Positions 13,762-17,807 of a DNA stretch of 25,096 nucleotides are shown here, piece by piece (the first letter of the stretch is position 1; each line of letters opens with the position of its first letter). The DNA comes from a virus. The notes under the pieces were generated by a model. It was not told the DNA's origin. It saw only the letters and a list, made by a program, of their open reading frames with translations, and did not search any database. Made by a program: the position numbers and the translations under genes. Where the stretch lies: positions 1 through 25,096 of IMG/VR virus record IMGVR_UViG_3300042691_024397; one strand, written 5' to 3'.

Positions 13762-14655
13762 TCATGCCGTTGCCTTATCAAATAATTCGTATTGCCTCGT
13801 CGCCTCCAAACAAGCCCGCTCACAATTCGCTTCAGCCGCTCGGTGATACTCCTGCTTCAATTCGCAGCCGTAAGCCCGCCGCCCTTGCTTCAACGCTTCG
13901 TATAGTTCACTGCCGATTCCAGCGAAGGGCGAGAACACAATCTCATTCGGTTGGCTGTAGAGCTTCACCAGCCGCCGAATCACGCCAAGCTGCAAAGGGC
14001 AGATGTGCTTCGTGTCGTCCTCGCCGCGGCCCTCCTTGACGTTCAGCGTGTCGGTTTCTCTGATGTCGTTCCAAGCCGACTCAGCCCAATCAATCCAGCG
14101 ATTACGCCAAGTGGTTTCGCTCTCCCCTTCGGCGTCATTGATCGGCACTTCGTTCTCGCCTGGGGCGCGAAACTTCAAGAGATAATCCGGCAGCGTCCCG
14201 CGACTTCGCGCCCTGTCGCTTTCCAATCCGCTGAATTGCAACTCTCGGCTTTTCGTGCGGATCGCTTGCGACTGAGGATTCTTCCGAATCAGCCAGTCGT
14301 ACTCAAACACCAGCCCGGCACGTTCACCGAGCCGAACATTCAGCCCGCGAAAATCAAACAAGCCGACTTCGCCCGTTCGCTTCATGCGGGGGATCTGCGC
14401 AACGTGAACCATGACCACTCGCCCCGGTTTCAGGATGCGGGCGAACTGGCGATAGAAAAACGAGAGATGAACCTTCGCCTCTCCCTTCAAATTCTCGCTA
14501 TTGCCGATGTCGGCAGGCGAGGATGAATAGGCGTAAAGGCTGGGAAATGGAGGACTAAACACCGACATATCAACGCACGCATCCGGCAGCGTTGCCATGT
14601 GCTCGATGGAGTCCCCGTGGTGAACATGCCACCGCCTGCCGTTAAGAATGTCCAT
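13762..14655 (-). CDS. DNA methyltransferase, SPPF class (N4-cytosine or N6-adenine)
   Basis: This 297-residue protein has the beta-class amino-methyltransferase order. The catalytic motif IV SPPF lies at residues 34-37, close to the N-terminus, and the SAM-binding motif I FSPFAGIGSE at 241-250 is near the C-terminus. In between is a target-recognition part (KSRELQFSGLESDR, RGTLPDYLLKFRAPG). The segment LYAYSSSPADIGN after motif IV is typical of phage-encoded modification enzymes. It transfers a methyl group from SAM to a DNA base; SPPF/SPPY is usual for N4-cytosine enzymes, but some N6-adenine enzymes look alike. It lies three bases below an endonuclease VII-like gene. No cognate restriction enzyme is adjacent, so self-protection of phage DNA is the likeliest role. 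Confidence 0.9.
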   Translation of the reverse strand: MDILNGRRWHVHHGDSIEHMATLPDACVDMSVFSPPFPSLYAYSSSPADIGNSENLKGEAKVHLSFFYRQFARILKPGRVVMVHVAQIPRMKRTGEVGLFDFRGLNVRLGERAGLVFEYDWLIRKNPQSQAIRTKSRELQFSGLESDRARSRGTLPDYLLKFRAPGENEVPINDAEGESETTWRNRWIDWAESAWNDIRETDTLNVKEGRGEDDTKHICPLQLGVIRRLVKLYSQPNEIVFSPFAGIGSELYEALKQGRRAYGCELKQEYHRAAEANCERACLEATRQYELFDKATA

Positions 14656-14657
14656 TT

Positions 14658-15122
14658 CTATTCATTATCTCCTTCTAGGTATTCCGCCGCCCGTCGCAAT
14701 TGCTCTGGGTCGTCTTTGAATTTTCCGATGCCGTGATTGCAGTTAGAACACAATAGCCCGCGAATCTCACCCGTCTTATGGTCGTGATCGACATGGAGTG
14801 ATTTGTGTTTGTCTCCCTCGACATGCTTAGTCTCGCAAATTGCACATCCACCGTGCTGCATCTCTAGTAATCGGTGGAATAGTTCAAGCGTTATTCCGTA
14901 AGCATTTCTCAGGTCGCAATCACGCTTCCAGCCAGGATGCTTCTCCCGCCACTCTTTCGTCTGTGCAATAATCTTTTGCCTAAGCAATGGATCGGATGCA
15001 TACTGCGCCCTGCGCCTTTCGTTGTATGCGTCTCGCTGCTTCCTGCTTGGCTTTTTCGCCCGATGCTTATTAGCTTGATAGTAGAGTCGGTTATATGCCC
15101 GCTTTGCTTCCGATATCGCCAT
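14658..15122 (-). CDS. Endonuclease VII-like HNH nuclease
   Basis: This 154-residue protein has a long basic helical N-terminus (KRAYNRLYYQANKHRAKKPS) and a C-terminal recombination-endonuclease-VII domain. The zinc ligands are Cys93/Cys96 and Cys125/Cys128, and the active-site stretch VDHDHKTGEIRGLLC (about 111-125) is characteristic, followed by NHGIGKFKDDPEQL. Endonuclease VII-like enzymes cleave branched and mismatched DNA. In a genome that also has RusA it may be redundant or act as a homing or debranching nuclease. Its ATG at 15122 lies inside the end of the helicase gene (32-base overlap), and GGGGGACTAC immediately precedes it. Confidence 0.92.
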   Translation of the reverse strand: MAISEAKRAYNRLYYQANKHRAKKPSRKQRDAYNERRRAQYASDPLLRQKIIAQTKEWREKHPGWKRDCDLRNAYGITLELFHRLLEMQHGGCAICETKHVEGDKHKSLHVDHDHKTGEIRGLLCSNCNHGIGKFKDDPEQLRRAAEYLEGDNE

Positions 15123-16608
15123 GTAGTCCCCCAGTCAGCGTGCTAAACAATTCTTCCTGCGCTTCGGTGTCCGCCTGAACACGGGCCGCCTTTCTCAAAA
15201 CATTATCGATCATTGGCCGCTCGATATCCGACACAGGAATATGGACATTAAGAGGTCGCGTTGATCCATACCTATTGGATCGCTTGACGCATTGATAAAA
15301 CTCCTCATAGCTGTCTTGGAGTCCCGAGAAAACCTGCCTGGTTGCAATCTGTAAATTAAGACCAAATCCGAGTATGCGTCCTTTGGAAATCAAAACCTTT
15401 CGCCGTCCGGCTTTGAAGTCTGCGATCAATTCCATTCGTTTCGCGTGCGGCGTGCTGCCGTCGATGTTCGCAGCGTCGGGAAATTGTGCGGCGCACGATT
15501 CCTGCTCGTCGTTGTAGTGACACCAGATGATGGTTGACTCATCCGGCCACTGGTCGACCATCGCCTTGATCGCGGTGTATTTGTTCGTAGGAATCGACTC
15601 GCCTTTGTGGCTCCCTTTGGCAAGCTGCCCCATAGTGGCCCGCGAAGTAATCCCGCCGAGTTCCGTCACCACCAGCTTGCCGGTCAACTTCCGCAACAGT
15701 GCATCTTGTTCCGGCGTGAGGTCAACGTGCTCGATATGCGTATGAATCGGCGGGATGGATTCGCAGTTATCTTTCCAGCCGTATGTCGCTGGATTCGTGA
15801 GGAAGATGCACCAATGCGAGAGACTTCGATAAAACGGTTTCAATGCGTGCGGCTTCAACTCCCACCGCTCTTGCGTCTGCCCGCGATTCACGAAGTACCG
15901 AGCGAGGAAGCTATTGATTGTGGGGAAGTGATCGAGGAATACGGCATGATTCGCGTACTCGATCCGATCATTGGGCGCGGGCGTCCCTGTTGCACACAGC
16001 TTCCATTCCAGCCCGCGCCCAAGCTCCAAGCACTTCTGGCCCCACTTCCCGTAGTGGCTCTTGAGCATCGACGATTCATCCAAGATCAATGCTCCTAGAT
16101 TGCCCTGGGTGATCTCATCCGTTAGGGCGTCATAGTTGGTGATTCCAATTCCGCCTTGCCCTCGCATCCACTCGCCGAGCTTCGCCGCTTTGACTTGCTC
16201 GATTTCCATCCCTGGATAGAACCGTTCGGCTTCGCCCATCGTCTGCGCGACCACCATCAGCGGAGACACGATCAACACTCGCTTGCTGCCATGAAGCGAC
16301 CGCCGGGCATGGCGGGCAAACTCAAGCAGCATCAAAGTCTTGCCGAGTCCGCAGTCGGCGAAGATCGCAAACTTCCCCTTCTCAATCGCCAGCTTGGAAA
16401 TGTCCCGCTGGTAATCGAATAGGCCGGGATGCAAGTCAACCGCGACTTTCATGCGGCGCGACTTCTCCCCGGTCAATGCGCCGGCATATTCAGCCGGCAC
16501 GATGATTCTCCGTCCTTCGACTCGATACGCGGGCAGTTGCTTCGCGGCGAGAAATTGCCGGTAGCTTTCCAACGAGTTCAAGTCGAGTTCAATTGTTAGT
16601 TCGTTCAT
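15091..16608 (-). CDS. SNF2-like DEAD-box helicase
   Basis: This 505-residue protein is a superfamily-2 helicase or translocase. Walker A is FADCGLGKT (about 83-91), motif Ia follows as VLIVSPLMVV (111-120), motif II is LDESS (176-180) and motif III is TGTPAPND (207-214). Motif IV/V-like STIIWCHYNDE and SKGRILGFGLNLQIA and the motif VI-like QCVKRSNRYGS appear in the second half. The N-terminal 60 residues form a small extra domain before the DYQRDI Q-motif-like helix. DESS rather than DEAH and the SNF2-like arrangement are common in phage replication or recombination helicases, possibly aiding fork remodelling. The ATG at 16608 has a GGAGAAGAAAG site and overlaps the upstream gene by 20 bases. 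Confidence 0.93.
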   Translation of the reverse strand: MNELTIELDLNSLESYRQFLAAKQLPAYRVEGRRIIVPAEYAGALTGEKSRRMKVAVDLHPGLFDYQRDISKLAIEKGKFAIFADCGLGKTLMLLEFARHARRSLHGSKRVLIVSPLMVVAQTMGEAERFYPGMEIEQVKAAKLGEWMRGQGGIGITNYDALTDEITQGNLGALILDESSMLKSHYGKWGQKCLELGRGLEWKLCATGTPAPNDRIEYANHAVFLDHFPTINSFLARYFVNRGQTQERWELKPHALKPFYRSLSHWCIFLTNPATYGWKDNCESIPPIHTHIEHVDLTPEQDALLRKLTGKLVVTELGGITSRATMGQLAKGSHKGESIPTNKYTAIKAMVDQWPDESTIIWCHYNDEQESCAAQFPDAANIDGSTPHAKRMELIADFKAGRRKVLISKGRILGFGLNLQIATRQVFSGLQDSYEEFYQCVKRSNRYGSTRPLNVHIPVSDIERPMIDNVLRKAARVQADTEAQEELFSTLTGGLHGDIGSKAGI

Positions 16609-16880: not shown

Positions 16881-17606
16881 CTACGAACATGCTTCTACGA
16901 TTCGCCGGCCGATCCATTCGGCGACTTGCGGCACGACGGCATTTCCAAATCCTCTAAGTCGGTCCACCACGCCGGGAATCCCATAAACCACGCTGCATGG
17001 TTCGGGTTGAGTTGCCCACCACGACGCCACTTGTCGCGCTCGGCGAGTTCGGCGCTTAGGCACGACTGCTGATGCGACTTGATCCTCTGGCGGCCTGGAT
17101 GCTCGCAACTGACTACTGTTAGGGTAGAAAATGTAAAACATGCGTTCTCGTGAGTGTGGGGCACCGAAGGCACACGCCGGTAGCACTTCCCATTCGCCAT
17201 CAAACCCGCTCGCGGCCATGCTTCCGAGAATTTCCCCATGCCCTCGATCCAACACCGCTGCGACGTTCTCCACGACTGCGAATCGCGGTTGTAGCTCGCA
17301 AATGATTCGGTGCATTTCCCGCCAAAGACCTGACCGATCGCCGGCCAATCCGACTTTCGTTCCAGCGGCAGAAATGTCCTGGCATGGGAATCCCCCGCAG
17401 ATGACATCAACGCGCCATTCGTCGGCATCGCCGGGCTGGAAGGTTCGGACATCATCGTGTCGTCGGACATTAGGCCAATGCTTCGCAAGCACCCTCTGAC
17501 AGTACGGATCGATTTCAACTTGCCACTTGCACACCATTCCCGCCCGCTCAAAGCCGAGATCGAAGCCGCCAATGCCGGCGAAAAGCGATCCAAAAGTCAG
17601 CCCCAT
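16881..17606 (-). CDS. Cytosine-C5 DNA methyltransferase
   Basis: The gene encodes 241 residues from the ATG at 17606, which has GGAGGGGAT just upstream; a longer frame to 17633 lacks this. All core motifs are visible: motif I FAGIGGFDLGFE (9-20), motif II with EIDPYCQ (31-37), motif IV GGFPCQDIS (71-79) with catalytic Cys75, motif VI VVENVA (111-116), motif VIII HSRERMFYI (151-159), and motifs IX-X DRLRGFGNAVVPQVAEWIG. The target-recognition domain between VIII and IX is very short, so the enzyme is compact, as in many phage orphans. It methylates C5 of cytosine, probably to escape host restriction. A second open frame covers most of this gene. Palindromes or hairpins flank it on both sides. 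Confidence 0.96.
   Translation of the reverse strand: MGLTFGSLFAGIGGFDLGFERAGMVCKWQVEIDPYCQRVLAKHWPNVRRHDDVRTFQPGDADEWRVDVICGGFPCQDISAAGTKVGLAGDRSGLWREMHRIICELQPRFAVVENVAAVLDRGHGEILGSMAASGFDGEWEVLPACAFGAPHSRERMFYIFYPNSSQLRASRPPEDQVASAVVPKRRTRRARQVASWWATQPEPCSVVYGIPGVVDRLRGFGNAVVPQVAEWIGRRIVEACS
16895..17593 (-). other. Alternative reading frame overlapping the C5 methyltransferase
   Basis: A second minus-strand frame stays open for 232 codons inside the methyltransferase gene, from a TTG at 17593 (an internal ATG at 17470 gives 191 residues). It contains FASYNRDSQSWRTSQRCW, then KFSEAWPRAGLMANGKCYRR, and ends LNPNHAAWFMGFPAWWTDLE. These segments resemble blocks I recall from proteins annotated independently in phage genomes (SWRTSQ, WPRSGMM, LNPxWVEWLMGFPxGWTDLE). 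Here each is the +1 frame of a conserved methyltransferase motif; for example SWRTSQRC covers VVENVAAV. There is no ribosome-binding site evidence for a separate start. It may be an artefact of the conserved DNA or a real overlapping gene. Confidence 0.3.
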
Positions 17607-17807
17607 ATCCCCTCCCCCCTGTCCCGCCGACACGAATCACGCTGAATTGAAGTGCCGTGGATTACCCGCCACGGCGTCGGGGTTCGTCGGCTGAATCAGT
17701 TCTCCCTGGTGCCTGAGTCAGCGGGCGGTGAATCTCTCGCGGTTAACCAGCCGCGCCAGGGCACCCCTTTTCGACGATCGCTTCCTATTTCGTCTCTCCC
17801 GCGCGGG
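17607..17807. other. Intergenic stretch upstream of the C5 methyltransferase, with hairpin
   Basis: No ATG-started frame exists here on the minus strand. GCCGTGG (17654-17660) and CCACGGC (17669-17675) form a perfect 7-bp inverted repeat with an 8-base loop. It could be a weak terminator for the upstream genes or an RNA leader structure for the methyltransferase. No U tract follows. Together with the inverted repeats downstream it sets the methyltransferase apart as a separate cassette. Confidence 0.35.

Follow-up and report, generated by a model that had tools for sequence, protein, structure and literature searches.

We found that the C5-cytosine methyltransferase gene in a 25,096-nt stretch of viral DNA (IMG/VR record IMGVR_UViG_3300042691_024397, positions 1 to 25,096; this whole stretch is called the window below) overlaps a long second frame on the same strand, and that dual coding of the locus is strongly supported. 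The locus very probably specifies a two-polypeptide C5 methyltransferase of the M.EcoHK31I type, in which a predicted small polypeptide (beta) is nested in the gene of the large one (alpha). The hidden protein is most likely the missing half of the same enzyme, with motif IX and the DNA-recognition part. In the arrangement that we propose, frame 0 would give alpha, with the AdoMet-binding and catalytic motifs I-VIII and a C-terminal motif X but no motif IX, and the +1 frame would give beta, with an N-terminal block (SWRTSQ...WPRxGxMxNG), a variable recognition region and motif IX. Beta would be translated from an internal start within alpha codons ~45-100 and would bind alpha as its small, DNA-recognition domain; the alpha-beta complex may then methylate the phage DNA, probably against host restriction.

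The minus strand of the window also codes for helicases, an N6/N4 methyltransferase, a large terminase subunit, an ERF recombinase and an HNH protein. The C5 methyltransferase is closely followed downstream by two minus-strand genes (13762-14655 and 15091-16608), for an N6/N4-type methyltransferase and an SNF2-like helicase. Alpha matched PF00145 with E=1.8e-46, its residues 4-176 covering only positions 2-176 of the 324 in the model, and phrog_363 matched it across the full length. Together with the C-terminal GNAVVPQ, this gives motifs I-VIII and X without IX, which is not the canonical monomeric C5 layout with all motifs including IX in one frame. An in-frame GTG at 17633 is an alternative to the ATG at 17606 as the alpha start. 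The features of the locus are listed in Table 1.

Table 1. Coordinates of the alpha and beta features in the window.
Feature	Positions	Strand	Basis or remark
Alpha ORF, C5 methyltransferase large polypeptide, frame 0	16881..17606	-	241 aa; ATG 17606, stop ends 16881
Shine-Dalgarno-like GGAGGG upstream of alpha ATG 17606	17610..17615	-	read from sequence
Alpha motif X, GNAVVPQ	16926..16946	-	frame 0 translation
Predicted beta ORF, +1 frame inside alpha	16895..17593	-	232 codons counted from first TTG (17593)
Beta block SWRTSQ, over alpha motif VI (VVENVA)	17258..17275	-	translation and relatives' consensus
Beta block WPRAGLMANG	17189..17218	-	translation and relatives' consensus
Variable (target recognition) region, alpha codons 161-198	17013..17126	-	beta conserved, alpha drifting
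Beta motif IX, LNPNHAAWFMGFPAWWT	16961..17011	-	L209 homology to M.HhaI; synonymous constraint about 2.6-3.0
Beta frame under purifying selection, alpha codons 101-220	16947..17306	-	same-codon ratio, dSN/dSS, scarce +1 stops in relatives

An earlier note on this DNA had reported a 232-codon frame in the +1 register of the methyltransferase gene. The frame is indeed present, on the minus strand, and includes the named blocks SWRTSQ, WPRAGLM and LNPNHAAWFMGFPAWWTDLE; the limits given for it (16895-17606) had combined two frames, 17606 being the start of alpha and 16895 the stop of beta. Also borne out was the remark there that such blocks occur in proteins annotated as separate phage genes, as the product falls in phrog_1008 (E=2.3e-14), phrog_31772 and phrog_26627; it has no Pfam match. 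The phrog_1008 and phrog_31772 clusters, both named 'DNA methyltransferase', are of the same family as the beta product, but carry a whole-enzyme name with no statement of an overlapping subunit. The longest +1 run in the window was 233 codons against a mean of 145 in synonymous-codon shuffles (p=0.05), and the length of the +2 frame was unremarkable. With +1 length at p=0.05 only, the window by itself proves little, and it is the relatives that decide.

We therefore turned to relatives fetched with patterns from the methyltransferase frame only, which leaves the sample without bias towards the hidden frame. Nearly all of the 80 relatives kept a +1 frame of 150-330 codons and had a broken +2 frame. 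Among the 71 distinct genes tested, the +1 frame was longer than in synonymous shuffles in 62 (mean 225 codons versus 115 expected), and by the same test the +2 frame was significantly long in only five; in a larger set, 165 of 198 related genes had a +1 frame beyond the shuffles. The overlap called unusually long in the earlier note is borderline in the window alone; across the relatives it goes far beyond chance. Free breakage of the frame by stops in relatives, named there as a sign against a real gene, was not seen: over codons ~82-215 in about 70 genes we counted three isolated +1 stops, all within the variable region. The beta consensus from about 70 relatives reads SFAxYDPxSxxWRTSQxCLLGGWxEFSGTWPRSGxMRNGIAYRLPPLVPRTxxTxSSxWPTPxA...GGQLNPTWVEWLMGFPxGWTDLExSET. 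A second type of beta N-terminus, with MTVTSG...GSLVRMLL...CYLTWK...RLLFRLxPSxPRT in place of SWRTSQ, was observed in L045, L060, L033 and L242 (985-1689).

As controls we used 30 canonical C5 methyltransferases from a 299-genome sample and from the genomes of earlier loci. A long +1 frame occurred in one of the 30, and the mean length was 71 observed versus 70 expected. All four genes lacking motif IX that the control search turned up showed a long +1 frame. Single-chain enzymes of actinophages gave no significant +1 length (0 of 20). Despite having motif IX in frame 0 they retain an SWRTSQ-like beta N-terminal block in the +1 frame, so that they are not a clean control and the canonical enzymes were used instead. 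In these actinophage genes (L248-L250, L254-L286) the +1 block AQWNPxRQLWETDQxDLLSGHSEPYSETLPTSGMTRSG...LLPTP ends before motif IX. Further scans for control enzymes returned too few loci for use.

Selection on the two frames was estimated in several ways. The same-codon ratio, in which codon sharing at positions with a shared amino acid is compared with the prediction from codon usage, was calculated for 19 genes less than 55% identical. It was ~1.0 over alpha codons 1-100 and 1.2-1.9 over codons 101-195, rose to about 2.6 over codons 196-216, where it peaked at 3.0, and returned to ~1.0 at codons 221-240; the beta frame is unconstrained from about alpha codon 225 onward. Third positions of alpha were more conserved than first positions over codons 196-210 (0.71 versus 0.58), as coding in the +1 frame predicts. 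The dSN/dSS ratio, from isolated differences counted over 60 independent pairs, was 3.2 (codons 1-60), 3.0 (61-100), 0.40 (101-160), 0.35 (161-200) and 0.26 (196-220), and 0.35 over codons 101-220 together. Over codons 161-200 the methyltransferase frame was nearly relaxed (dNN/dSN 0.62) and the hidden frame was held; between the window and its relative L055 the identity in this region was 33% for alpha and 59% for beta, with base identities of 0.44/0.69/0.72 at alpha codon positions 1/2/3. The constraint was alike in genes above 62% GC and below 52% GC. The dNN/dNS ratio was also low in the actinophage single-chain enzymes and is not specific on its own in codons 101-160, so we relied on synonymous constraint, dSN/dSS and the shuffles. 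We concluded that selection acts on both frames, and that selection on the beta frame starts only at about alpha codons 60-100. Of the two alternatives raised in the earlier note, this favors real dual coding in these phages, with translation of beta predicted; that the hidden protein is probably the missing motif-IX part of the same enzyme was not foreseen there.

A search with the hidden-frame alignment returned at least 574 viral loci and 228 GTDB genome loci, whereas a single-protein hidden-frame pattern search of IMG/VR had yielded nothing. We fetched the best 80 of each. The methyltransferase frame was present in all 160 loci and stop-free in 157. Standalone beta homologues, which we had first expected, were not found among these 160 loci; beta always sits within, or runs on from, an alpha gene. 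The absence of homologues outside intact methyltransferase genes, listed in the earlier note as a further sign against a real gene, is therefore largely true, but a subunit encoded inside the gene of its partner would be expected to show it as well.

Motif IX was in frame 0 in two of 198 nested genes and in all 30 canonical enzymes. Both profiles occurred in one ORF at four loci (L106, L173, L192 and L209). Only L209, from an alphaproteobacterial MAG, has LNPDWVEWLMGFPIGWTE in frame with the catalytic part and motif X, and its PF00145 coverage extends up to position 319 of 324, versus 176 in the window. In L209, LNPDWVEWLMGFPIGW aligns with motif IX of M.HhaI (LHPRECARVMGYPDSY), which in M.HhaI is followed by FGNSVV of motif X; this motif IX match is a short one, scoring 2.9 bits as a separate domain, and depends on the pattern and the position before motif X. 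Through this natural fusion the beta segment LNPxWVEWLMGFPxGW corresponds to motif IX of M.HhaI. Motif IX was assigned to beta via this in-frame homologue, and the copy in the window has diverged (LNPNHAAWFMGFPAWW). The other three loci were considered as true fusions and rejected, as each fits a single frame-shifting indel. In these three the N-terminal part of alpha passes into the beta frame; they may be pseudogenes, sequencing errors or natural hybrids.

Three layouts of this gene were found in nature. The nested layout is seen in the window, L251, L253 and Paenibacillus phage Arcticfreeze. In Arcticfreeze both gp56 and gp57, the latter inside it in the +1 frame, were annotated by the depositors; GGGAGG lies upstream of the gp57 ATG, and the full-length nested beta matched phrog_1008, the beta family, with E=6e-72. 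In the split layout the two genes overlap partially (Mycobacterium phage Firecracker gp6/gp5 and Streptomyces phage Euratis gp33/gp34): alpha ends after motif VIII, and the +1-frame beta holds the variable region and motifs IX and X. The hidden frame here continues on its own past a naturally truncated alpha, which bears on the earlier question of whether it occurs where the methyltransferase frame is broken. In the single-chain layout (Mycobacterium phage Tweety gp72, prophiT46-2 gp23 and Gordonia phage Lton gp60), LLPTPxASD...EWMMGWPxGWVT...GNGVVPQ or close variants of it stand in one frame. The cluster phrog_116 is of this single-chain kind; alpha matches its positions 205-374 and the split betas its positions 412-495. 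With motif IX in beta and not in alpha, and with nested, overlapping and single-chain versions in related phages, the window most likely encodes a two-polypeptide enzyme.

Some other annotations in this group were observed. Mycobacterium phage Melvin (L295; gp81/gp80) and many similar mycobacteriophages have two adjacent, slightly overlapping 'DNA methylase' genes, and these pairs are probably the split layout. In Mycobacterium phage Llama (L245; gp74/gp75) and the relatives of Spikelee gp77, alpha is broken into two parts, annotated as two methylases; compared with near-identical phages in which it is intact, the frame has changed. In Microcystis phage Mwe-JY08 (L252) only the end of the beta frame was annotated, as a hypothetical protein, and alpha was missed, the mirror image of the usual error.

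The hidden frame might instead be translated as an independent accessory protein, e.g. a regulator or an anti-restriction factor, and not as a second subunit. No counterpart of the SWRTSQ/WPRSG block is recognised among M.HhaI-type enzymes, and the retention of this block in the +1 frame of enzymes with motif IX in frame 0 indicates a role outside the motif-IX explanation. On the other hand, motif IX lies on beta exactly when alpha is without it, and the split phage pairs carry both IX and X on beta; we consider an accessory protein improbable.

No start codon of beta was found to be conserved across the relatives. Candidates in the window are ATG 17470, ATG 17407 and TTG 17488, with no good ribosome-binding site at the two ATGs; TTG 17593 is an unlikely start because selection begins only at alpha codons ~60-100. 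Across the genes, an ATG or GTG in the +1 frame of codons 30-100 with a strong ribosome-binding site was present in 65%, versus 36% in synonymous shuffles; starts of this kind in the +2 frame were not in excess (27% versus 37%). Independent internal initiation of the putative beta is the simplest reading of these figures. The variable start and the onset of selection inside alpha would also suit programmed ribosomal frameshifting, by which the N-terminal half of alpha would be joined to the beta frame in a longer hybrid with no separate beta. We regard this as very unlikely: no shifty site was recognised and there was no sharp peak of constraint near codons 60-100, +1 internal starts with ribosome-binding sites were enriched, beta of the split phages has its own annotated start, and a hybrid would not unite motifs VI-VIII with motif IX. 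Least credible of all, with hardly any chance of being right, is that the hidden frame is a shadow of the conserved methyltransferase protein and GC-rich codon usage made into a family by gene callers, which would agree with the borderline length in the window and with homologues being almost confined to intact methyltransferase genes, but not with the failure of shuffles that preserve the methyltransferase protein and codon usage to reproduce the long frame, its rarity in canonical enzymes, the scarcity of +1 stops, the third-position constraint on alpha where the hidden frame is conserved, or the equal constraint in genes below 52% GC.

Structure prediction was less informative. AlphaFold modelled the window beta alone with pLDDT 62 and pTM 0.26, and a fold search of this model against the PDB gave no match. 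The beta profile had no significant hit among PDB sequences, and the Firecracker beta was likewise without a PDB match. A lone subunit dependent on its partner would be expected to model poorly, yet this lends no positive support. In the model of the L209 fusion the catalytic domain is HhaI-like, with 2z6q as its best PDB match (E=7.5e-15), and the recognition region is poorly modelled.

The nested two-polypeptide kind of C5 methyltransferase is already known from M.EcoHK31I. Lee, Kam and Shaw reportedly described in 1995 that the coding sequence of its beta lies inside alpha in a different frame and that methylation requires both polypeptides. M.EaeI is an isoschizomer of M.EcoHK31I, with the target YGGCCR. 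The larger subunit of M.EcoHK31I carries motifs I-VIII and X, with IX on the smaller one only, whereas in M.AquI both IX and X are on beta (PMC3404938). Compared by motif layout, the window resembles M.EcoHK31I in having I-VIII and X on the large subunit and IX on a predicted small subunit which, as reportedly in M.EcoHK31I, is nested. The two differ in that the M.EcoHK31I literature assigns the predicted recognition domain to alpha, whereas the variable region of the window is conserved in beta and drifting in alpha. M.AquI also consists of two complementing polypeptides. Its layout, with IX and X on the small subunit, is matched by Firecracker gp6/gp5 and Euratis gp33/gp34 but not by the window, in which alpha holds X and the whole of beta is nested. 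Our literature search for such an overlap in phages returned only mentions of M.EcoHK31I and the unrelated ShiLan element, an out-of-frame HNH element in phage methylases that is a mobile insertion encoding a homing nuclease (PMC11855218). The ShiLan element and the present locus are alike in that a phage methylase gene hides a second protein in a different frame; unlike ShiLan, the locus has no insertion, its hidden frame lies over the catalytic motifs, and the hidden product has no Pfam match, to HNH or otherwise.

Three things look new against the literature searched: how widespread the arrangement is, the evidence for selection, and the indication that the recognition region is part of beta. 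We put forward the last point tentatively and with rather less than even confidence: the DNA-recognition region may belong to beta, with the alpha reading a near-neutral filler, so that specificity would reside in an overlapping frame and would have moved between frames across lineages (nested, split and single-chain), and the SWRTSQ/WPRSG domain may have a function of its own.

Phages and bacteria with this arrangement number in the hundreds, and mis-annotation is the usual case. Since as a rule a single frame is annotated and its partner dropped, many phage methyltransferases entered as 'complete' probably represent one half of the enzyme, and some 'hypothetical proteins' probably represent the other. 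Where such genes are expressed without beta, in methylome work or as tools, failure would be expected. To our knowledge, long same-strand overlapping genes have rarely been demonstrated in bacteria and phages. Here the overlap would have a clear molecular reason, each frame encoding part of one enzyme, and there are hundreds of natural replicates and three interconvertible gene layouts. Questions on overlapping genes, and on how split enzymes originate, become directly testable in this system.
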